DNA of 64,000 bases from an uncultured Maribacter sp. (GTDB lineage Bacteria; Bacteroidota; Bacteroidia; Flavobacteriales; Flavobacteriaceae), in the NCBI GenBank assembly GCA_947493885.1, contig CANLTE010000005.1, positions 124,001-188,000 on the forward strand. The letters run 5' to 3'. Both the position numbers and the translations under genes were made by a program. Each line of letters opens with the position of its first letter. Within the stretch, counting starts at the first letter, position 1. Below are positions 2,760-13,844 of this stretch, piece after piece. The notes below the pieces were generated by a model. That model was given only the letters and a program-made list of their open reading frames with translations, did not search any database and was not told where the DNA came from.

Positions 2760-5700
2760 TTATTCAAAATTATGAGTGATTCCAAACAAAAACACATTGG
2801 AGAAAAAATTCTCTATTGTGTATATTTCATACCCCGCAGTTAGTTTGGTAAAATCTTTAATTCTGTAGAAAATGTTACCTGTATAGCGTTCAAAGCTTGG
2901 CTCATCTTGCTCCGCGAATATCCCAAAATCCGCATTTAAACTAAACTTGCTTTTTTCTGTTCCTATGTTTAAAACAACACCTCCACCACCGTAAAGTCTA
3001 TTATCATCCATCCAATACGGATATCCACCTCTACGGTCAATGCTTCCCTTACCATAAATACCTTCAACTAATGGAGACAGTTTAAACCTTTTATTCTTAA
3101 TTAACGCGAACTCCGTTCTACCTAATAAAATAGCCTCATATTCACCATCGGTATAGTAGTTAGTTTCTAGTGCAATTATTTGATTGAACCTTTTATAGAA
3201 TGGCATTTCTTTATAGACCGTAAGTCTAGTTCTATACAAATCTAAAGAATGTCCTGGTCCAGATTTTACAGGAAACAAGTCCAACTCATATGCTGTAAAC
3301 TTTTTCTTTTTGGTTTGACTATATGTTGCCCCTCCCTGAAAAAACAATCCACTTACGTTGTCTTTCTCAATACGCCCACGTAGTGTATATTGAAATTTTG
3401 GATTGGTTTTTTTAGTATACATGTATTGAATACCTAACAAATCATGATCAATATTATTGTCATCTTCAATATCAACATTCAAAGCGTACATTATACTTTG
3501 TGTTAAAGACAGCGTATGCATATCTCCCTTTTTATTATGAAAGTTGTAGCTAACAATGTTTTCTAAAGTAATAGGCTTAAAAGCATCACTAATATTATAT
3601 GTATTAAACCCAATGGAATTTCCATATTCTTGACGTTGAATTTTAGCAATTATTTCGCCTATTTCGGGATCTAACAAATCGGCATATAATTTATATATCT
3701 GAATTTGTTCTTTAACACTCATTCCCAGAACCTCCTTATTTAATGCTTTTTTAAAAGATTTATCAATTTTATGATTCGGAACACTTAATGCTATTTTAGC
3801 TGCTTCATTTACATTACTCTTATATAACATTAATGTTGCCATAAGCATTTTAACATCATAATCTTTTGGATGCTTAGATATGTAATTTTTATACGTCTTT
3901 TTTAAATTATCAATTTCATTTAGCTCATAATACCATTGTAATTTACTTTTGATAGGAATGTCTTTAGCACAAACCGACCATTGGACTGCTTTTTTAAAGT
4001 TTCCGTGATCTCCAAACGCTGTAGCAATTTTTTTAGAAAGATGTGCTAACTCTTGTTGACAAGACTTTGTTTTCTTTAGCTCGTATAAAGCTCTTTGAGT
4101 GTCATTTGCTAATAAAAGAGCTATGTAGTATGGAAAGTTAGTTTCTTTAACCCTATCAAATGATTTAGAATTTAAAAGCCAATATTCAATAGTCGCCTCA
4201 TCAATACCACTAGTACAATCTTTCCACAATAATGCTTTATCAAACCTTAAATTATCAGCAAAAGCCCAAGCAACAGTATTGGCAATATCTTTATAATTTA
4301 TATCACATGGTGCAATTTTTTCCAAAGTGGGAATTAAATCATCGTCTTTATAATTTATCAGATGGTCTATATATGTTTTATTGTATGCTGGTTTATCAGT
4401 TATATTTATTAACGTGTTTAGCACTTTTTTAACCGTGGCTTGCCGATCTGAAGTGTTGAAATGTTCTATGTATTCTAACAAAACGCTTTCATTAGTAGTA
4501 CCCCACTCCAACTGCCTATTTAACCATTTTTCGTGAATAAAAATATCCGTATAGTCTGCTACTTCACTTACGATTCTAGATAAATCAGCATTGTTTTTTG
4601 ATTTATTTTTAAGATAAAAGTTATCTAGATTATTCCATAATTCCTTTTCCCTTTTTTGCCAAACCATATAGGTGGCATACTCTTTCCAAATAGCTTGCGT
4701 TCCTATTTTTGGATTAAGTCTCATTTTAAGCTCAATAAGGTCTGTTGCCTTTTTTAATTCTCCATCCGCTACATACCTTTTTAAGCGTTCATTCAGTGGA
4801 GTTAAATAATCTTTATTTTCCAAAAACGCTTGGTATTCCTTTTTTACTTCAGAAATCACTGTACTGTTAGATAATCCACTTTTAAGATAATGGCTATACA
4901 AATCTGGTAATGCAATTTCTGCATCTTGTGTTTTTATGGAAAATAAATTTCCGCCTAAAAATGGCACTTTTTTAAAAGTTGCAGCTTCTTGGTTTAAATG
5001 TTCTTCAATGCTTTTAGTATTTTCTTTTTTTACGTAAAGTAGCCAATAGTTATCTCCTTTCTTAGTTTTTGCATTTCTACTTTCTACATTATACATTCCA
5101 TCAATATTAAAATGATTGTAGTAAGCATATCTCCAGTTCTGTGTAATCACGGAAGCATCAGTAGCGTTTAAAAAACGTGTAAAAGGATGTCTTTTTTTAT
5201 AATCTGTTATATGCCCTTTAAAAATATCGAACATCCCTTTTTTTCCATTTTTTGAATACCAATTATATCCATGTTTATTGCGATATGAAAAGTGCCCGCT
5301 GGTTTTAGCATTAGATTCATCCGGAATTTGATATACATCATCTGGGTGTACAAAATGCGTCCAAGCACCAGTACCTATGTAAAGAGATTCTATCTCCCAT
5401 GTATTTTCTGCCTCTAAAAAATACCCGCTACTTATTCTTGGAAAGTCAAAAAATTTCGAATTATAAGGGTCTGGGTCAAATTCTCTGTCCCCACCATCTT
5501 CCAAATGCCCTTGAAACGTACTTTGCATAAAGCGAAGTGTAGGCATCCCCTTGTTTAATTTGGCAAGCCCAATACTATCTATATAATTTGAAGGTGGAAC
5601 ATATGAAATGGGCAACCTTTTAAAATCTAATACTTTCCATTTTTTTACTGCCGCATTTAAAGAGGTAACAATGTATTCTGGGTTTTTCCACTCATCTTTT

Positions 5701-6767
5701 AGTAACGAGACATGATTATACCCATGAAAACCTAACTCGTGTCCGCTATTAATAACGTCTTTACCAATCCAAGTACTTTGTTTTTCAAGCCCTCCATTTA
5801 CGGTAAATGTATTTTTATTCCATTCTTCAAAATTAAACGGAGGAACTACCTGTACGTTATAGTCAAATGTAACATACGCCGTATATTTTATATTTTCCTC
5901 AATAGCATATTTTTTCATATCGGGCCACCAAACGTCCTTTACATAATCTGATACTGTAATGTTTAGCTCAGACTTTATAGGTTCTTTATATATATCATAA
6001 GTTGGAGAAGGAAAATCATCTAAAAAAATTGTGGCTACATTGGCTACAGGATATGGAACCCCCTCTAACCCATTTAAAACGCCAGCAAATAAAAATCCTC
6101 TTAAGTTTTTACTAAAAAAACTTCCTGAATTAAAGAATAACACCTTGCCTTTTCCTACTTGATTTTCAACTAAAACAGGATAATCATTGTTGTTAATAGC
6201 GCTTACTAAAACATTAATATCATCTAAAAAATTTGACCTAGAAAACCCTAAATGTGGACTTTTATCATCATATGAAAAATCTTTTTTACCTGGAAACATT
6301 GGTACATTAAAATAAAACCCCGTTGCTTCTTTATTCTGCTCCCAATTTGCATCTGGTTTAAGTCCTTGTAAAAAAGCTATACGGGGATCCCTAATCGCTT
6401 TTGTTATATACAGTGTTCCTCCTTTAGCTACAAAATTCATTAACGAATCTATAGCGACATCATTTAGCGCATTGGCGTTATGTAAACATATGACTCTTGC
6501 AGTAGGAGCAATCTCTTGATTTTCGTTAAAAGTTTTTAAATCAATATTTTGATATGGTATTTTAGTATAATCCAGTACTTTATTTAAGTTCTTACTTTCC
6601 AATACATTACTGTATTCCTTTTTATCTACAATAAATTGTAGCAAGGCTGGTTCTTTACTTTTACCTGGAATGCTAAATTCATGGTTAATTCGGTAGATTT
6701 CTCTCTGACAACCCGAAAAAATAAGCAACATAATTAGTGCAGTTCCTAATTGATTAAATTGCTTCAT
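2760..6767 (-). CDS. Lipoprotein joining a PelA-like deacetylase (DUF2194-like) to a PelB-like helical repeat and outer-membrane beta-barrel
   Basis: The product has 1335 residues. A lipoprotein signal peptide ends in LIFSGC with acylated Cys20. Residues about 40-240 look like a Rossmann/GATase-type domain. Residues about 245-480 carry polysaccharide-deacetylase signatures: FLDDFPSP (Asp250, Asp251), GFHGYNH (His348, His352, an HxxxH metal motif), YVPPSNYID, and HFVHPDD near 471-477. Residues about 620-1035 are helical repeats resembling TPR. Residues about 1040-1335 alternate polar and aromatic beta-strands and end in a terminal aromatic (THNFE), as outer-membrane barrels do. In the Pel system of Pseudomonas, PelA deacetylates the polymer and PelB (TPR plus porin) exports it, as two proteins. 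Here both appear in one chain. It overlaps the upstream membrane gene by 4 bp (ATGA) and is the last gene of the operon. The domain assignment is by eye; the deacetylase and barrel calls are firmer than the repeat call. Confidence 0.8.
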   Translation of the reverse strand: MKQFNQLGTALIMLLIFSGCQREIYRINHEFSIPGKSKEPALLQFIVDKKEYSNVLESKNLNKVLDYTKIPYQNIDLKTFNENQEIAPTARVICLHNANALNDVAIDSLMNFVAKGGTLYITKAIRDPRIAFLQGLKPDANWEQNKEATGFYFNVPMFPGKKDFSYDDKSPHLGFSRSNFLDDINVLVSAINNNDYPVLVENQVGKGKVLFFNSGSFFSKNLRGFLFAGVLNGLEGVPYPVANVATIFLDDFPSPTYDIYKEPIKSELNITVSDYVKDVWWPDMKKYAIEENIKYTAYVTFDYNVQVVPPFNFEEWNKNTFTVNGGLEKQSTWIGKDVINSGHELGFHGYNHVSLLKDEWKNPEYIVTSLNAAVKKWKVLDFKRLPISYVPPSNYIDSIGLAKLNKGMPTLRFMQSTFQGHLEDGGDREFDPDPYNSKFFDFPRISSGYFLEAENTWEIESLYIGTGAWTHFVHPDDVYQIPDESNAKTSGHFSYRNKHGYNWYSKNGKKGMFDIFKGHITDYKKRHPFTRFLNATDASVITQNWRYAYYNHFNIDGMYNVESRNAKTKKGDNYWLLYVKKENTKSIEEHLNQEAATFKKVPFLGGNLFSIKTQDAEIALPDLYSHYLKSGLSNSTVISEVKKEYQAFLENKDYLTPLNERLKRYVADGELKKATDLIELKMRLNPKIGTQAIWKEYATYMVWQKREKELWNNLDNFYLKNKSKNNADLSRIVSEVADYTDIFIHEKWLNRQLEWGTTNESVLLEYIEHFNTSDRQATVKKVLNTLINITDKPAYNKTYIDHLINYKDDDLIPTLEKIAPCDINYKDIANTVAWAFADNLRFDKALLWKDCTSGIDEATIEYWLLNSKSFDRVKETNFPYYIALLLANDTQRALYELKKTKSCQQELAHLSKKIATAFGDHGNFKKAVQWSVCAKDIPIKSKLQWYYELNEIDNLKKTYKNYISKHPKDYDVKMLMATLMLYKSNVNEAAKIALSVPNHKIDKSFKKALNKEVLGMSVKEQIQIYKLYADLLDPEIGEIIAKIQRQEYGNSIGFNTYNISDAFKPITLENIVSYNFHNKKGDMHTLSLTQSIMYALNVDIEDDNNIDHDLLGIQYMYTKKTNPKFQYTLRGRIEKDNVSGLFFQGGATYSQTKKKKFTAYELDLFPVKSGPGHSLDLYRTRLTVYKEMPFYKRFNQIIALETNYYTDGEYEAILLGRTEFALIKNKRFKLSPLVEGIYGKGSIDRRGGYPYWMDDNRLYGGGGVVLNIGTEKSKFSLNADFGIFAEQDEPSFERYTGNIFYRIKDFTKLTAGYEIYTIENFFSNVFLFGITHNFE

Positions 6768-8743
6768 AGTTCAAATATTAGTTTATCCAATTTGGATGAA
6801 TTGGGTTTGTTTACAATTTCGTAAACCGTTAAATCTTTGTTTTCGTAATATATATTTACTTCTCGCCCTCTTACTTTTAAAATGCTAATCTGAGCTTTTA
6901 CATCATCAACAATTTCTTGGGGAGTCACTAATGCGTTCAAACTACCTGCATTTGTTTTTTTTGCGACAAAAACAAATACGCTATGCGGCAAAATTACCGA
7001 CGGATTATTTTTAAGAAAGGCCTTATCATCCTTTACAACATGAAAAATGGAATCACGCTTAGCATAACCATTTACAAAATCTAAATAGTTCACAAAATAA
7101 TGTTCACTTTCGCTTATATTTTGACCGTAGGAAGCATTAACAACAGCATATGAAAAAGGCATATAATTACTTGAAAGGTCATCATATACTAACAAAATAT
7201 CTGTTTTAAGTTGGTCTTTTTTTACATAGTCAAACTTAAAAAACCCATTAGTAAAAAAAGAAACCATAATTAACCCTAAAAACAAAACACTTAAACTAAT
7301 GCTTCTTGTCAACGGCTTTTTAGGTATTGAAATCTTAAAATAATAAACAATGATTCCTGAAGTTATTCCAACTAAAAGCACCAAAAATGCAGATAAGGCC
7401 TGAAAATATAGATCCATATCAATCCACTCCCAGGGAACCCATTTCAATAAGACTACAGCGTTAAAAAACAGGATAAATGCTAGCATCGGCGTCCACTTTT
7501 TTCTTTTCTTAATAGTCATAAGTATCACAAACACTGTTGCCGCGCATCCAACTCCTAGGTAAATAAGAACTAAATCGTCGGTACTAGCAATTAGCTGTGG
7601 AAAATATGCGTACGCATCTACCAAAATCATGTTCTCCCTTAGAAAACCTAAAAAAGACGCATGATTAATCCAACATACAAAAGCATGTAAAATCAGTATT
7701 AGCGCCGTTGCTAAAACATAACTTAATATACTTCTACCAACATATGGTCTTGTTTTTTTTGTAGATAATATTAATGAAATCAGCAAAAAGAGAGGAACAA
7801 TTAATAGCGCTACAAATAAATTGGTGAGCGACAATGCTGTATAGATGATAAAAAGCATCCAAAAGTATCGTTTTTTATTAGGGGATAGTAGTTTAGGTAT
7901 TACCGAATAAAGCATTGCCGGTAAGGCAAACCAAAGTGCAATATATAATGGGTTATGCTCTAATAAAAAGTTGATATTAATTGGCATATACCTATAAAAA
8001 AATGCAAAAAACATAACCCCTACCATTGGCGCAGTAAACTTAGATTTGGTGATTTTTACCAAAATCCAATATAGCACAATACTGAGACCAAAAACCTCTA
8101 ACAACCCAAAGGAATGCACGGCCATTTCCTCACTTATCCCTGTTATTTTACTATAAAAACTTATTAATGCATTTTCTCCAAGAAGCGTAATACTATCTGA
8201 AAACCAGTTATTAACATTAAACTTTTTAACCGACTCTAAATTTCTTATCCATAAACCAGATAAGGTATACAGATCATTTTTTAAGAATAAATACCTTGAA
8301 ACCAAAGCTGCAAATGATACAAAAAATGCCACAATGAGCATTATATTGTACTTTTTGGGTAATTTAAAATTTAATCCTTTTGAAAGTTGATTTTGGATAC
8401 TTAGGTTATTCTCCATGAATTTGAAAAACCCCAATAAAAACGACTTTCTTTTTTTACCTGTTGTTTTAGGAAAATCAATGGCTTTTCCAAAGGCTAAATA
8501 CTGTCCTATCAGTAGTAAAAAGAAAATAGATATCAGGGTAAAAACATCATACATTTTTAACTGTACCAGTACAAATATTAGCAACAATATAGCGCTACCA
8601 TAAATTGTTGTTCTTTTTAAAATGTAATCTAAATCATAATTCTTAACAGACTGTTTTGTCACAATTTGATGCACCAATATTGTTGCAAAAAACAACACAA
8701 AAATCCTAAAGGGTCCAATAAGAACATTATCTATATAAAACAT
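6764..8743 (-). CDS. Large polytopic membrane protein of the Pel-like operon (unknown role)
   Basis: The 659-residue product has roughly 13 hydrophobic helices spread over residues 1-510. A soluble C-terminal domain of about 140 residues follows (from about FDYVKKDQLKTDILLVYDD to the end), presumably on the periplasmic side. I see no GAF, GGDEF or TPR domain, so it is not an evident PelD or PelE. The overall layout, many helices plus a soluble tail, resembles GT-C-type glycosyltransferases, but I see no diagnostic acidic loop motif that would prove this. It overlaps the gene before it by one base (TAATG) and the gene after it by four (ATGA), so translation is tightly coupled to a GH114 protein and the export fusion. 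Its place suggests it fills the inner-membrane role otherwise taken by PelD/PelE. Confidence 0.75.
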   Translation of the reverse strand: MFYIDNVLIGPFRIFVLFFATILVHQIVTKQSVKNYDLDYILKRTTIYGSAILLLIFVLVQLKMYDVFTLISIFFLLLIGQYLAFGKAIDFPKTTGKKRKSFLLGFFKFMENNLSIQNQLSKGLNFKLPKKYNIMLIVAFFVSFAALVSRYLFLKNDLYTLSGLWIRNLESVKKFNVNNWFSDSITLLGENALISFYSKITGISEEMAVHSFGLLEVFGLSIVLYWILVKITKSKFTAPMVGVMFFAFFYRYMPININFLLEHNPLYIALWFALPAMLYSVIPKLLSPNKKRYFWMLFIIYTALSLTNLFVALLIVPLFLLISLILSTKKTRPYVGRSILSYVLATALILILHAFVCWINHASFLGFLRENMILVDAYAYFPQLIASTDDLVLIYLGVGCAATVFVILMTIKKRKKWTPMLAFILFFNAVVLLKWVPWEWIDMDLYFQALSAFLVLLVGITSGIIVYYFKISIPKKPLTRSISLSVLFLGLIMVSFFTNGFFKFDYVKKDQLKTDILLVYDDLSSNYMPFSYAVVNASYGQNISESEHYFVNYLDFVNGYAKRDSIFHVVKDDKAFLKNNPSVILPHSVFVFVAKKTNAGSLNALVTPQEIVDDVKAQISILKVRGREVNIYYENKDLTVYEIVNKPNSSKLDKLIFEL

Positions 8744-9552
8744 TATTCTTCCGAATTAAATTGAGGTGGTGATTGCAAGTTTATTTGAGTTATAAAAAAT
8801 GGAAAACCAAGACTTGATAGCTCTTTAGATACCTTGTTTTTCATACCAATGGTATCTGCATATTCCAATATATATATTGGTTTTTTAATTTGGCGTTTTA
8901 CTTTTTTTATGGCTTTATGAAGTTGATTTTTGCTATTATCATCTCTAAAGGTGTATTGCTGATTTTTAAAATTGTAATTCGTAATAACAGATTCTACCAA
9001 CACTGCATCAGTAATTTTATTCAATTCTTTTCCTAAAAACAGCCCCGAATTTTGAACTAGAAAAAGGTTTTTAGTTCTAATCTGTTTTATAAAATCCACA
9101 AGGTGTTTTTTATATGCTTTTAGCTCTCCCCATGGAGATACATTATCTATATTATCCAGAAATAAACCATCGAACCCTTTTTGCTTTAATAAGGCTATAT
9201 TTTCAAGAATAATTTGTTGTGCAGGTTTTAACGAAACATCAATAAACCAACTATTCCAAATCCCGTTTTTACCTAGCGTGTATGGTTTAATATCTTCGAA
9301 AAATTGTGCAGCTTCGTTAACCTCTGTTAAACTTATATATGCAACAACCCTATTGTTATTTTCTTTAAAAATTATGACTTCTTCAACATTGTAATGGGCT
9401 GCTTCTAAAATTACCAAGTCATAACCTTTTACCAATTTTGGATTTGTTTTTCCATAACAAACAAATAAACCTTTGTTCATTTGAACAGGGTTTTCCTTTT
9501 GAGCTCCTGTTATAAAAGGAAGTAGAAAGTATATTAAATTAATAGGCCGCAT
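8743..9552 (-). CDS. GH114/TM1410-type glycosidase, canonical domain order (PelA hydrolase-like)
   Basis: The 269-residue product starts with a signal peptide (IYFLLPFITGAQ) and is otherwise a TIM-barrel of the GH114 / TM1410 type, the family of endo-alpha-1,4-polygalactosaminidases and of the PelA hydrolase domain. Visible motifs in order: YDLVILEA (strand 1-2), VVAYISLTEVNEA (acidic loop), WFIDVS, the signature GFDGLFLDNIDNV, LFLVQNSG and DAVLVESV. In Pel systems such a domain cuts partly de-N-acetylated galactosamine-rich polymer in the periplasm. Here it is encoded apart from the deacetylase. It overlaps pelG by 14 bp and the next membrane gene by 1 bp. The length is that of a bare single domain. 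The family call is firm; the substrate is inferred from the operon. Confidence 0.85.
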   Translation of the reverse strand: MRPINLIYFLLPFITGAQKENPVQMNKGLFVCYGKTNPKLVKGYDLVILEAAHYNVEEVIIFKENNNRVVAYISLTEVNEAAQFFEDIKPYTLGKNGIWNSWFIDVSLKPAQQIILENIALLKQKGFDGLFLDNIDNVSPWGELKAYKKHLVDFIKQIRTKNLFLVQNSGLFLGKELNKITDAVLVESVITNYNFKNQQYTFRDDNSKNQLHKAIKKVKRQIKKPIYILEYADTIGMKNKVSKELSSLGFPFFITQINLQSPPQFNSEE

Positions 9553-11146
9553 AGTAATTATAGTCTAATTTTTTAAAGAATCTTATGACCTCTTTTAATG
9601 TCAACATCATAAAAACAATGGCTCCAATAAGCATTCCTACAACGCTGTATTCGTAACTAACGGTTCTGCATAACACATATCCAATTACAAAATTTACTAT
9701 ACACGCATACCCAAGTGCTGTTAAAGCTCCTTTTGGTCTGTCCAATGTAAAAAGGTACAAGGTGTTTAACATTCCCCATGTTAAAAACAAATACCCAACA
9801 CTACCAATTATACATACTTTTATACTTACCCACTCTAATGCTTCACCAAAATTAGCCTCGTATCCCCAAGGTTGGGTCACCACCAAATAAATAAATGAAG
9901 TTGATATAATTGCCGTCAAAAACAACAATGCAATATGTCCCTTATACATGTTGAACAAATTTTGATTGAATTCTTTTTTGTCTTTAAAAAGAATATGTTT
10001 TTGTCTAACATCCATAAACTTGCTAAATGAAGCTATGGAGTACTCCAAAACACCTGCCAACATAAAGAAAATAAGAATTGCTAGATCCATTCCTATTTCA
10101 TAATTTTTCTCATATAACAGTGCAAAGTGCTTTGTTAATTCTGAATCAGCAGACCATGCCAAAATTCTATCTAAAAAAACAAATACATAAATTAAAACTC
10201 CATAAAAGAAGTATCTGTAATTTTTATAGATAACCACCAATTTTTTAGGCTTAATCAATGTTTTATCTACATTGGCTTTATATTTTTTATAAAAATATTT
10301 TAAAAACACCTGAGCTATTACAATAGCCAATGCAATTCCAATCCAATGTGTAAAATAAATATGTATGCTGGTGTATTCTTTTAAACCCAAAGCAACTGCT
10401 GTGGCTACAGATATGGATAAGGTAATCACCCATCGCTGCCTCATGGTATGAAAAGGAGCAATCGTCAACAATAAAACTCCAATTAATAAAGCATATGAGC
10501 ATGTAATTAAAACCAGGTAAAATGGATATATATTGAAAAGCGAATTAACAATCGCTACCATAATAAAAATTATACCCATACCTCTAATCCCCGATTGAAT
10601 GAGTTTATCTATTACAATTTTAGCTTTCCCATATTCTTTATGATGCCAGTAAAACGAAGCTTGCCTACCTAAAACCTGTACATAGCCTCCAGAGACTATT
10701 AAACCTAACATTACACCCAACACCACCGCCGTTGATTGTACTACATTAAAACCTAAATATGTCCAAAGCGAATATCCAAACAAAATGATGGATACTATTT
10801 GTAAAAAAATAGGTAGCAAGTGAAAAATTCCTAATGGATAAAATTGAAGTAAAAGCCTTGCCTTCATCCAAAGGTAACCTGATACCGGAATCGTTCCATT
10901 TTTCTTTTTATTGTTTTTAAGTTCGTTTTCATTTTTAAGCTCATCTCTATCTCTACTTTTTAAATCATGATAAATATGATTTGCCAAATCTGGAAGTGTA
11001 ACAAAGCCAAAATCGTTGAAAACATCCTTTTCGCGTATTCCAAAAGACTCTAATGTTGCTAAAACAACCATCCTACTTACCGGGTTGCCTATTTTATGAA
11101 TCACGGCTTCAGTAGCCTCATCTATATTATTTTGAATTATGCTCAT
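9539..11146 (-). CDS. pelG: PelG-like polysaccharide exporter (MATE/MOP-type membrane protein)
   Basis: The 535-residue product begins with an unusual soluble stretch of about 110 residues (SRMVVLATLESFGIREKDVF). Some twelve transmembrane helices follow from about residue 95 onward. The internal pattern around SGGYVQVLGRQASFYWHHKEY and the helix pairs match PelG, the Wzx-like flippase/exporter of the Pel system, which carries the nascent polymer across the inner membrane. The gene directly follows pelF (25-bp gap) and overlaps the GH114 gene, the same pelF-pelG adjacency seen in characterised Pel operons. The N-terminal soluble extension is longer than I expect for Pseudomonas PelG. Confidence in the family is high; polymer identity is unknown. 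Confidence 0.85.
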   Translation of the reverse strand: MSIIQNNIDEATEAVIHKIGNPVSRMVVLATLESFGIREKDVFNDFGFVTLPDLANHIYHDLKSRDRDELKNENELKNNKKKNGTIPVSGYLWMKARLLLQFYPLGIFHLLPIFLQIVSIILFGYSLWTYLGFNVVQSTAVVLGVMLGLIVSGGYVQVLGRQASFYWHHKEYGKAKIVIDKLIQSGIRGMGIIFIMVAIVNSLFNIYPFYLVLITCSYALLIGVLLLTIAPFHTMRQRWVITLSISVATAVALGLKEYTSIHIYFTHWIGIALAIVIAQVFLKYFYKKYKANVDKTLIKPKKLVVIYKNYRYFFYGVLIYVFVFLDRILAWSADSELTKHFALLYEKNYEIGMDLAILIFFMLAGVLEYSIASFSKFMDVRQKHILFKDKKEFNQNLFNMYKGHIALLFLTAIISTSFIYLVVTQPWGYEANFGEALEWVSIKVCIIGSVGYLFLTWGMLNTLYLFTLDRPKGALTALGYACIVNFVIGYVLCRTVSYEYSVVGMLIGAIVFMMLTLKEVIRFFKKLDYNYYAAY

Positions 11147-11170
11147 TGGGGGAAGTCTAATACTCTAATA

Positions 11171-12685
11171 TTATTTAGTATTACTGACCAAACTGTGTTT
11201 TGTATTAGCTAAAGAGTCATACGTTTTTTCATACGCTTTTATAAAAGTTTCGATAGTGAAATTATTTTGAACTTTGGTTCTTGAATTTTCTCCCATCCAG
11301 CCCCTTAGTTGCTCGTTTTCAAGCAGCCTTACAACCTTTTTGGCAATTTCTTTATAGTCTTTTGGTTTACATATAAAACCGCAGGTTTCATCCAATGCTT
11401 CTGACACCCCTCCAACATCTGTAGCAACTACTGGAACACCTGAACTCATTGATTCTATAACGGTATACGGAAAACCTTCAGATATTGAGGTTAAAATAGA
11501 AATATCACCTTCGGAATAAATTAATTCCGGACTATTGTGAAATCCTTTCAGAAAAAAATTATCCTGCACCTGAAGTTCATCAATTAAAGCTTCGCACTCT
11601 TCTGTATATTCCGGAACAGCATCCTTATTACCATAAATTAAAAACTGAACTTCTGGAATTTTTTTCCTAACCTCATCACAGGTTCTAATCATGGTTAAAA
11701 TATCCTTTAAATCAAAAATTCGTGCTGCGGCAACCACAGTGGGAACATTTTCTAAATGTTCAGGCTTAGACCTAGGCTTAAAAATGGTATCATCAACACC
11801 ATTATAGATTACATCAATTTTTGACTCATCGGCTCCGTAAAATTTCTCCCACGTAATATTAAACTTGTTTACTGTGGTAATTTTAGAAGCATGGTGATAT
11901 ACTAGTTTTGTAATACTTTCAGAAAAGCTAATCAACATTTTCTTTAAAAAATAGGAGTAATCGGCAGAACTAATAGCAATAAGTCTTTCTCTAATAAAAA
12001 CACCATGTTCTGTTACCAATATTGGTGTATTATGTCTGTACTTTAATGCCAAAGCAGGAATCACAGCAATACCAGAAATGGTAACATGTGAAACATCTAC
12101 TTTAGGAACTTTTATTGCCATTGGAATTAAAAAACGATATATCCAGCGCATTGCGGTAGTCATATCATCTAAACTCACATGATTTAATTCTTCTTTAGGT
12201 AGCGTTTTTTTAACCACGTTACAAAAAGTGTCCCAAGCTAGCTCACTTCTCATAGTGGTTTTATAATCGTAATCTTGAAAAAACAGCCACATATTATAAA
12301 AGCTATCGTCTACTTTTTTTATCGATGCTTGTTCTGAAAAAACTTCCTTGATAAAGTCACTAAAAAAAGGAATAAACAACGCTTTGATTGATGGGTTTGA
12401 TGTATTCTCTTTTGCCTCTAAAATTTTGGAATATTTTACATCATAATCAATACAATCTAAAGGTTCTTCTGAAGACCATAAGGGTACTTGTATCACCTTT
12501 TTAACATTGCTACTAAGCTTAAACTTTGATTCTTTTTCAACCTCGGCATTTATAGAGTATAAAACGAAGTCCACATTTTTTACCTTATTACATAAATCGT
12601 GAGCCCAAGTTGAAACTCCACCAAAGTTGAAAGGATAAGTTCCTTCTGAAATCAGAAGTACTTTTGTATTATTTTGTAATGCCAC
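11171..12685 (-). CDS. pelF: PelF-like GT4 glycosyltransferase
   Basis: This is a 504-residue cytoplasmic GT-B enzyme of glycosyltransferase family 4. The N-terminal Rossmann half opens LLISEGTYPFNFGGVSTWAHDL, the glycine-rich acceptor loop typical of PelF. An insert at about residues 60-175 is also typical. The C-terminal half has VVAAARIFDLKDILTMIR, the EX7E donor motif in SEGFPYTVIESMSSGVPVVA, and TDVGGVSEAL. PelF is the only soluble glycosyltransferase of Pel systems and polymerises UDP-activated N-acetylhexosamine in complex with inner-membrane partners. The gene lies 25 bp before pelG. The 136 bp upstream, up to the GH114 lipoprotein gene, hold no clear terminator, so all six genes could be one transcript. 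A one-mismatch promoter element (TTtaTTTG on the minus strand, near 12720) might add internal initiation. Confidence 0.92.
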   Translation of the reverse strand: MALQNNTKVLLISEGTYPFNFGGVSTWAHDLCNKVKNVDFVLYSINAEVEKESKFKLSSNVKKVIQVPLWSSEEPLDCIDYDVKYSKILEAKENTSNPSIKALFIPFFSDFIKEVFSEQASIKKVDDSFYNMWLFFQDYDYKTTMRSELAWDTFCNVVKKTLPKEELNHVSLDDMTTAMRWIYRFLIPMAIKVPKVDVSHVTISGIAVIPALALKYRHNTPILVTEHGVFIRERLIAISSADYSYFLKKMLISFSESITKLVYHHASKITTVNKFNITWEKFYGADESKIDVIYNGVDDTIFKPRSKPEHLENVPTVVAAARIFDLKDILTMIRTCDEVRKKIPEVQFLIYGNKDAVPEYTEECEALIDELQVQDNFFLKGFHNSPELIYSEGDISILTSISEGFPYTVIESMSSGVPVVATDVGGVSEALDETCGFICKPKDYKEIAKKVVRLLENEQLRGWMGENSRTKVQNNFTIETFIKAYEKTYDSLANTKHSLVSNTK

Positions 12686-12821
12686 GTAGGTATTCTAATT
12701 ATTGGTTAGTTTAATGAGCGCAAATAAAATTGATATAGAAGAGATTCTCATTTATTTTAGTTGAGTTGTGAATTTAATCTATAAAGCGCACCAATATTAC
12801 CAACTAACAGATAGCATATGA

Positions 12822-13844
12822 TTATTTATTTTCGAAGTACTCAAAAGCATCTATGATATCTAAGTAAACTCCGTCGTAACCCGTCACAATAATTTTATCA
12901 AGATATGATTCTGGTAATCCAAAAATAATAGTTTGCCAATCTTTATTCCAATACTTCACTTTATAGTTTCCTGGCCAATTTTTATTTTCTTTATCTAACC
13001 AGTCCAAGTTTTTAGGATTCCATTCCTCATTCCAATAAAACCTATAATCTTCTGCCTCTCCTATAGACATATAACAATATACCAATCGTTTTTCTCCATT
13101 AGGCTTTGTTTTCATTTTGGCTATGTCCAAATTAGAAAACTGTGTTCCATCATTATAAAACAAATCAATTAACACTAAATCGTAGTAGGAATTAGCAACA
13201 TCTTCAACTACATTATTTTTGCTGGAATAGTTCTCATAATTTAGAAAGAAAAGAAAGTTTTGAGCGTCATCTAAAGATACAATATTATTGTTGTTTTTAT
13301 TTTGATAAACAGTTGGCACAATAGTTAAATCTCTTTCCGTAGCCTGATAGGACGTAAAACCTAAATTAGAATTATTGATATAAGACTGATTTATTTTCTC
13401 TTTGGAAGAGCAATAATCTGTTACAAAAATGGCTTTACCATGCTGTTGAGAAATTTTTAGATAATCTATTAAATATTGGTTTGCGTCAGAGGGCGTTTTT
13501 TTGTTATCGCTGCTGTAACCATAAAACAGGCTTTCTTGTCCATGAGCATCAATTGCATTTAAATACGATTCGCTAGGTTTCCCATTTGCATTGTCACTTA
13601 ATGTCACAAGCTCAATTCCATTTTGTGGTATAACTCCAAAATTGGGGTTCTTTGCCTTGGCATAGCCGCTTAAATTAACTACAAAAGAACGCATATCATC
13701 GCGATAGTTTCTTTTCTCCTCTTGATTTTTTCCTTCAGCAACAGGAATATTTGCTGTTTTACAGCTAGAAAAAAAAGAAATTATAATACTTAAAATAATA
13801 TAAGCGTTGTGCTTTTTATTATTCTTTAAAAATTGCACTACCAT
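12822..13844 (-). CDS. Lipoprotein GH114/TM1410 glycosidase with apparently circularly permuted barrel
   Basis: The 340-residue product has a lipoprotein signal peptide with lipobox FFSSC (Cys28). The family blocks are present but in swapped order. Residues about 48-175 carry the blocks normally C-terminal in TM1410-like proteins (YAKAKNPNF, IPQNGIEL at 72-79, YLNAIDAHGQESLFYG, AIFVTDYCS). Residues about 218-335 carry the blocks normally N-terminal (YDLVLIDLF, YCYMSIGEAEDYRFYW, the Trp-rich WPGNYKVKYW, and GYDGVYLDIIDAFEY at the very end). A linker at about 176-215 joins the halves. All catalytic-face acids of the family are therefore present. It is the first gene of the Pel-like operon, with a perfect TAnnTTTG element 24 bp upstream. 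The likely role is trimming the exported galactosaminan at the cell envelope; this is inferred. Confidence 0.85.
   Translation of the reverse strand: MVVQFLKNNKKHNAYIILSIIISFFSSCKTANIPVAEGKNQEEKRNYRDDMRSFVVNLSGYAKAKNPNFGVIPQNGIELVTLSDNANGKPSESYLNAIDAHGQESLFYGYSSDNKKTPSDANQYLIDYLKISQQHGKAIFVTDYCSSKEKINQSYINNSNLGFTSYQATERDLTIVPTVYQNKNNNNIVSLDDAQNFLFFLNYENYSSKNNVVEDVANSYYDLVLIDLFYNDGTQFSNLDIAKMKTKPNGEKRLVYCYMSIGEAEDYRFYWNEEWNPKNLDWLDKENKNWPGNYKVKYWNKDWQTIIFGLPESYLDKIIVTGYDGVYLDIIDAFEYFENK

Follow-up and report, generated by a model that had tools for sequence, protein, structure and literature searches.

A lipoprotein joining a putative Pel-type deacetylase to a predicted export barrel in a pel-like operon of an uncultured Maribacter

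The fused gene and its two halves

The window analysed here is a 64,000-nucleotide stretch from an uncultured Maribacter sp. (GenBank assembly GCA_947493885.1, contig CANLTE010000005.1, positions 124,001 to 188,000), and its subject is a gene on the minus strand at window positions 2760-6767. The encoded protein of 1335 amino acids (aa) has an enzyme half and an exporter half and probably serves a pel-like exopolysaccharide system as a single-chain modification-and-export protein. An earlier note, made from the DNA letters, had proposed a PelA-like deacetylase and a PelB-like export porin fused in one lipoprotein; this central claim was upheld, with the corrections given below. The gene is composed as follows, with the evidence in brackets.

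2760..6767, minus: fused deacetylase-exporter lipoprotein, 1335 aa (open reading frame, Pfam, relatives, AlphaFold2, Foldseek)
6708..6767, minus: residues 1-20, predicted signal peptide and lipobox IFSG-Cys20 (Cys20 conservation)
6048..6680, minus: residues ~30-240, N-terminal domain that aligns with the CBM114 region of the Pel deacetylase PelADA, borders approximate (phmmer to 9zau from residue 59; the name CBM114 from passages of PMC13254593)
5088..6047, minus: residues ~241-560, putative deacetylase (CE26-like, DUF2194) with D250, D251, H348, H352, H474 and D477, borders approximate (PF09960, 9zau, 3qbu)
4929..5051, minus: residues 573-613, small strand-helix-strand-strand unit joining the enzyme to the repeats (AlphaFold2)
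3624..4868, minus: residues 634-1048, predicted helical (TPR-like) repeats (AlphaFold2; weak TPR/PPR profile matches)
2769..3617, minus: residues 1051-1333, predicted 16-stranded beta barrel (AlphaFold2; Foldseek to BcsC, PgaA, PelB)

The gene is genuine and, as the note had it, forms one continuous reading frame (codons 2763-6767, stop 2760-2762); it lies on the minus strand, and plus-strand frame 1 across 2760-6767 has stops throughout. Its ATG overlaps the stop of the upstream 659-aa gene in an ATGA junction. The own genome shows one match to the fusion. A 95%-identical copy of equal length lies in a different uncultured Maribacter assembly (L039), and the nearest named relatives are Maribacter. 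Relatives were taken as the best 80 of 190 stretches encoding them, and 75 of the 80 carry intact full-length frames of 1289-1372 aa; four of the rest leave the contig end (L088, L098, L104, L116) and one, L059, is broken by two in-frame stops. A frameshift or an assembly join of two ancestral genes, raised in the note as a possible undoing of its claim, was looked for, as was read-through across two genes: fusions of this kind are a usual artefact, but no positive evidence of one turned up, and the 95% copy, the intact relatives from many separate assemblies and the fused state of all 27 strong DUF2194 proteins in a further genome set (the phylum sample, see below) make this explanation practically negligible.

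The enzyme half matches Pfam PF09960 (DUF2194) with an E-value of 2.1e-65 (221.6 bits, cut-off 30.4). Moreover, residues 59-481 align by phmmer to the Pel deacetylase structure 9zau (E 1.3e-46), the one PDB entry that residues 1-560 match in sequence at E 0.001. According to passages of PMC13254593, 9zau is the accession of the Bacillus cereus PelADA, the founding member of both CE26 and CBM114, and the chain numbers plus 25 give the residue numbers of that paper. In the alignment, PelADA D262, D263, H350, H354, H488 and D491 correspond to D250, D251, H348, H352, H474 and D477, whereby the catalytic base, the metal ligands and the acid are all kept. Conservation of these six residues, together with the founding position of PelADA, argues that the enzyme half is, as judged from the alignment, a PelADA-type deacetylase with a binding domain and not the CE21 domain of Pseudomonas PelA. 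The "PelA-like deacetylase" of the note is therefore correct as to the deacetylase, and needs amending as to PelA, whose CE21 domain is not the one present and whose hydrolase is here a separate neighbouring gene. The possibility that residues 245-480 lack a deacetylase fold is countered by their lying within a stretch that aligns to a solved Pel deacetylase. H348 and H352 are kept in 70 of 78 aligned rows, namely all those outside an orphan lineage described below.

The exporter half was modelled with AlphaFold2 over residues 560-1335 from 67 aligned sequences (mean predicted local distance difference test score, pLDDT, 89.1; predicted template modelling score, pTM, 0.54). The model consists of the small alpha/beta unit, then helices over 634-1048, then 16 strands over 1051-1333, which bears out the helical middle and strand-rich C-terminal region noted earlier. 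Among 1119 Foldseek matches in the PDB at E up to 10, the top five are BcsC (9b8a, 9b8h, 6tzk), PgaA (4y25; target template modelling score 0.71) and PelB (9h80_M, E 7e-7), with E-values from 2e-10 to 7e-7. A second model covering residues 136-1335 (pLDDT 87.0) leaves the top five unchanged. The 16-stranded barrel is common to PelB, BcsC and PgaA in passages of PMC12141448, and the predicted exporter half agrees with this type, with a 16-stranded barrel after TPR-like helices. Thus, the failure of residues 1040-1335 to form a barrel, which would have undone the note's claim, is not what the models predict, the best fold matches being polysaccharide exporters. A sequence profile of the exporter half gave 23 matches, to TPR-like and PPR-like repeats plus a few that look fortuitous. 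When sequence profiles were used to connect the barrel half with PelB, no link was found, fold comparison being the sole one, so "PelB-like" holds for the fold but not for sequence homology. A barrel profile built from the relatives recognises 13 of 14 phylum-sample proteins tested at E 3.4e-13 or better (L014 and L161 being the same gene), and the distant L160 at E 0.05 only.

At the N-terminus, Cys20 is conserved in 78/78 aligned rows (the window and 77 loci), all with a lipobox-like pattern close to the N-terminus; the more distant L034 and L160 have no cysteine at that position. With its lipobox cysteine behind a signal peptide the fusion reads as a lipoprotein. Cys20, Asp250/251, His348 and His352 were found where the note had placed them, with the lipobox IFSGC. 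The residue at +2 relative to the lipobox cysteine is Gln, not Asp. By eye, the pattern C-Q-[RKQN]-[DE]-[IL]-Y behind Cys20 is frequent in close relatives and not in distant ones; C-Q-R-E-I-Y resembles surface-export signals, and no conclusion was drawn from it. The terminal aromatic claimed earlier is present as a penultimate Phe (the chain ends N-F-E), not as the last residue; across 90 relatives, window included, an aromatic lies within the last three residues in 40 and at the very end in 6. The "rare topology" attributed to a lipid and a barrel on one chain was overstated: N-terminally lipidated outer-membrane barrels are known in the OprM/CusC family and in NalP-type autotransporters.

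Distribution, inheritance and operon context

In the family sample, 12 of 199 genomes match the fusion, 10 of them (own included) over nearly full length. The phylum sample gave 30 matching genomes out of 395: in 27, spread over five families, the frames measure 1268-1349 aa, and three have weak partial matches in short frames. A DUF2194 search of 395 genomes found matches at E 0.001 in 46, of which 28 exceed the cut-off. All 27 strong proteins (193 bits or more) lie in 1268-1349 aa frames (27/27 fused), the 28th is a 30.8-bit partial match in a 696-aa frame, and the 18 genomes below the cut-off show partial matches in frames of 132-842 aa. In a class-wide sample of 295 genomes, only the own genome had DUF2194 over the cut-off. 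Overall, the family is patchy in Bacteroidota, yet the fusion is conserved wherever the family occurs, which qualifies the notion of a fusion conserved across the phylum.

Pairwise distances of the enzyme and the barrel over 90 sequences (one duplicate pair) correlate with r 0.91, with 0 of 999 permutations as high, and of the 54 well-supported splits in the enzyme tree, 42 are also found, again with good support, in the C-terminal tree. This pattern fits one old fusion inherited whole.

In the window, the fusion gene is the last of a packed run read from right to left: PelF (12685-11171), PelG-like (11146-9539), hydrolase (9552-8743), 659-aa protein (8743-6764), fusion. Every gene overlaps the next from PelG to the fusion, and the gap between PelF and PelG is 24 bases. 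The neighbours are the following.

6764..8743, minus: 659-aa multi-helix membrane protein with a C-terminal soluble-looking part, directly before the fusion, no convincing family match
8743..9552, minus: putative PelA-type glycoside hydrolase, 269 aa, on its own chain (Pfam GH114, E 3e-12; PelA profile matches)
9539..11146, minus: PelG-like inner-membrane exporter (PF16933 in homologues)
11171..12685, minus: putative PelF glycosyltransferase (NCBIfam NF038011, 170.7 bits, cut-off 100; DUF3492)
12822..13844, minus: second GH114/TIGR01370 hydrolase with a lipoprotein-like N-terminus, 136 bases upstream of pelF (TIGR01370, 177.8 bits, just below the cut-off of 181.25)

The hydrolase at 8743-9552 has profile matches to PelA 5tcb (278-residue chain, E 4e-28) and to residues 3-244 of 900 in PelA 9cgy (E 6e-28), and therefore PelA's two activities appear to sit on separate chains here. 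The window's PelG-like protein has no Pfam match, and PF16933 (PelG) is matched by 10 of 22 homologues (best E 1.6e-9). The order PelF-PelG-hydrolase-659-aa-fusion on a single strand recurs in 61 of 80 loci, the rest being 10 contig-end cuts and 9 orphans; in 68 of 80 a member of the 659-aa family immediately precedes the fusion, the exceptions being the 9 orphans and 3 cut contigs. Judged by homology, PelF, PelG and PelA-type enzymes occur together as in a pel operon, with hydrolase and deacetylase on separate chains. The 659-aa family gave no convincing Pfam match over 22 members (seven families, one member each, best E 0.00065), and the window protein had neither an NCBIfam nor a PDB profile match; it may stand in for PelD/PelE.

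Nine further stretches, drawn from the family and phylum samples, were compared, and seven (G506, G260, G209, G462, G550, G450, G272; families f8, f24, f13) carry the same upstream genes as far as the stretch reaches. G431 has PelF, PelG and the 659-aa relative, with other genes lying between them and the fusion and no hydrolase within its 18 kb; G075 is an orphan fusion locus.

Several side observations were made at these loci. The flanks of 31 of the 80 loci include a relative of the second GH114 hydrolase, which is encoded on the opposite strand in seven loci from Salegentibacter and one from Christiangramia. By eye, G260 and G209 have an extra gene with a C-terminal HD-like domain between PelG and hydrolase, and a 516-543 aa gene with an HD phosphohydrolase-like C-terminal part lies in or near the pel-like operon of other families (L158 5378-6940, L159 14687-16318, L160 6946-8535), adjoined in L160 by a PP2C-type phosphatase-like gene; these HD-like and PP2C-like genes are possible regulators. 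L160 also encodes a distant fused relative (8899-12930) whose signal lacks the lipobox cysteine, whose TPR motifs are clearer and whose neighbouring genes are ordered differently; it may be close to the ancestral form. A promoter scan found 49 candidates against 58.3 expected in shuffled sequence, and 7 terminators against 5.0; neither was used.

An orphan lineage in Maribacter

Nine Maribacter loci carry the fusion alone.

L051, L053, L054, L056, L057, L061, L066, L083, about 9.0-12.9 kb of each: orphan fusions, no pel genes within 9 kb
L059, 9094-12900: ninth orphan, no pel genes in the 9-kb flanks, in three open pieces via two in-frame stops

In the eight aligned proteins of this lineage (8/78 rows), H348 is replaced by Arg and H352 by Asp, and H474 by Asn in seven of the eight. 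No PelF over the cut-off was found under any of 10 handles for orphan genomes (0/10; G075 and G583 are apparently one genome). Median ratios of nonsynonymous to synonymous substitution rates (dN/dS) across four regions were 0.03-0.06 in the orphans. Operon-type Maribacter gave 0.08-0.13, and a second group of the operon type, for which each region offered only one or two usable pairs, gave 0.04-0.07. All these values are rough; of the 28 orphan pairs 11-18 could be used, and their synonymous sites were close to saturation. The orphan proteins look as if they were maintained under purifying selection, but not as deacetylases. The lineage, with its altered active site, is a natural experiment on whether the enzyme half has a structural role as well.

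Proposed role, alternatives and known systems

By homology, PelF would make a galactosamine-type polymer, which PelG, with the 659-aa membrane protein, would move over the inner membrane. The fusion's carbohydrate-binding and deacetylase domains may hold the polymer in the periplasm and take acetyl groups off part of it; the helical repeats would then serve as a rail and the predicted C-terminal 16-strand barrel as the outer-membrane exit. The fusion would thereby fix the deacetylase 1:1 to the exporter, replacing the contact of separate PelA and PelB in Pseudomonas, and deacetylation would be coupled to polymer exit, while the PelA-type hydrolase would remain a free enzyme from the adjoining gene. 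The N-terminal lipid most likely tethers the enzyme end next to the polymer's path, at the surface of either the inner or the outer membrane. In Pseudomonas, binding of PelA to PelB repeats 9-14 raises deacetylation and lowers hydrolysis, as stated in passages of PMC12022489; compared with this, the Maribacter deacetylase would be hard-wired to the rail and the hydrolase left free.

Several observations weigh against this role. The pTM of 0.52-0.54 in both models does not fix the placement of the domains relative to each other. The 23 sequence-profile matches at E up to 1 do not include PelB; 9zau is absent among the best 50 Foldseek matches listed for the residues 136-1335 model, in which the enzyme fold is backed by the deacetylase HP0310 (3qbu) at rank 42 alone. 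Seven of the 54 well-supported splits on the enzyme side disagree with the C-terminal half, and the distance correlation owes part of its strength to shared species history and contains the one duplicate pair among its 90 sequences. No PelD or PelE was recognised in the operon with Pfam (PelE was not searched genome-wide); a PelD_GGDEF (PF16963) search of the own genome gave no match, yet its control matched nowhere either. The overlapping operon genes leave no room between them for a PelC gene, which was not searched genome-wide. The nine orphan loci retain the fusion without the operon, and the polymer would be identified from PelF and hydrolase homology.

Three alternatives were weighed. 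The barrel might be the functional part, with the deacetylase half mainly a scaffold that needs no activity, as suggested by the Maribacter lineage without H348 and H352 (and in seven of eight without H474) whose chain is still conserved at dN/dS 0.03-0.06. That lineage, however, lacks the operon and any PelF over the cut-off, and the remaining 70 rows retain both histidines, so this is unlikely. A polymer other than Pel, namely a different amino-sugar polymer made by a pel-derived operon, is suggested by the unrecognised PelD/PelE, by the 659-aa protein without convincing match and by the HD-like-domain gene added in at least two other lineages (by eye); it is rather doubtful, as PelF over cut-off, the PelA hydrolase domain and the second galactosaminidase-family gene all indicate alpha-1,4-galactosamine.

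The lipid might also stay in the inner membrane, one chain bridging both membranes, which would be compatible with a modification-and-export role. The outer membrane is the destination of most Bacteroidota lipoproteins, the +2 residue is Gln and not Asp, and the models leave the relative placement of the domains free, which makes bridging the less likely arrangement. In its favour, 415 residues of predicted helical repeats and two enzyme domains could form a long rod, and passages of PMC12141448 propose that PelB, with its N-terminal hydrophobic helix, possibly spans both membranes.

The modification-and-export protein remains the preferred reading. More tentatively, several Bacteroidota lineages could possess a pared-down pel system whose entire outer half, from polymer binding and deacetylation to the periplasmic rail and the outer-membrane exit, is a single lipidated chain without a PelC ring, and in which an undescribed membrane-protein family replaces PelD/PelE; one Maribacter lineage could have a dead-enzyme exporter for another polymer.

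The coordination of deacetylation and export between PelA and PelB was stated to be unclear in passages of a 2025 PelA paper (PMC12022489). A covalent fusion would fix stoichiometry and order along the polymer path, lend independent evolutionary support to the PelA-PelB complex, and offer one polypeptide on which the entire outer half could be solved and tested. Moreover, it suggests that the hydrolase need not share the deacetylase's chain and that a pel-type exporter may function without the PelC ring. Neither the fusion nor a Bacteroidota pel system was described in titles or abstract starts among the open-access literature matches listed, and "bacteroid" has 0 occurrences in the main texts of PMC13254593, PMC7112194, PMC12141448, PMC7112168 and PMC12022489. 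A table with pel genes in PMC8305213, a paper on three bacteria of which one is a Sphingobacterium, was set aside: its PelA-PelG, Psl, alginate and PQS names fit Pseudomonas, and the passage does not give the genome. DUF2194 occurs in two papers, PMC12828279 and PMC9848294. A Fusobacterium nucleatum DUF2194 gene has the strongest down-regulation among the rows shown for coculture with Porphyromonas gingivalis in PMC9848294; if a pel gene, it would tie the enzyme family to mixed-species biofilms.

Compared with known systems, the Maribacter fusion would place deacetylation of a biofilm polymer and its outer-membrane pore on one chain, which in the best-studied bacteria are separate proteins. 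Pseudomonas PelA (GH166 and CE21) has the same kind of job and a hydrolase part homologous to 8743-9552, but it joins hydrolase and deacetylase, whereas in Maribacter the hydrolase is separate and the exporter carries a deacetylase from a different CE family. Pseudomonas PelB, which acts with PelC, likewise has helical repeats that lead into an export barrel of 16 strands (fold match 9h80_M), but is separate from the deacetylase and without detectable sequence homology, and the Maribacter operon has no PelC gene. The exporters BcsC (cellulose) and PgaA (poly-N-acetylglucosamine) provide the best fold matches of the C-terminal half; neither is known to have a deacetylase on the same chain. Cetobacterium belongs to the Fusobacteriota and has an outer membrane. 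The pel operon of C. somerae (NZ_CP143320.1) similarly holds DUF2194, PelF, PelG and polygalactosaminidase genes together, with DUF2194 as a separate 609-aa protein; therefore the enzyme is unfused in another phylum. B. cereus PelADA (CE26 and CBM114, 9zau) resembles the fusion in sequence over residues 59-481, in all metal and catalytic residues and in its location in a pel operon, but is a 593-residue chain in the PDB, has no export barrel and, according to passages of PMC13254593, is anchored by a transmembrane domain in a Gram-positive cell. An enzyme-exporter fusion as such has a precedent in Zymomonas BcsZ-BcsC, where, according to passages of PMC7112194, a periplasmic enzyme is likewise fused to an outer-membrane exopolysaccharide exporter, the enzyme in that case being a cellulose hydrolase of another system and phylum.

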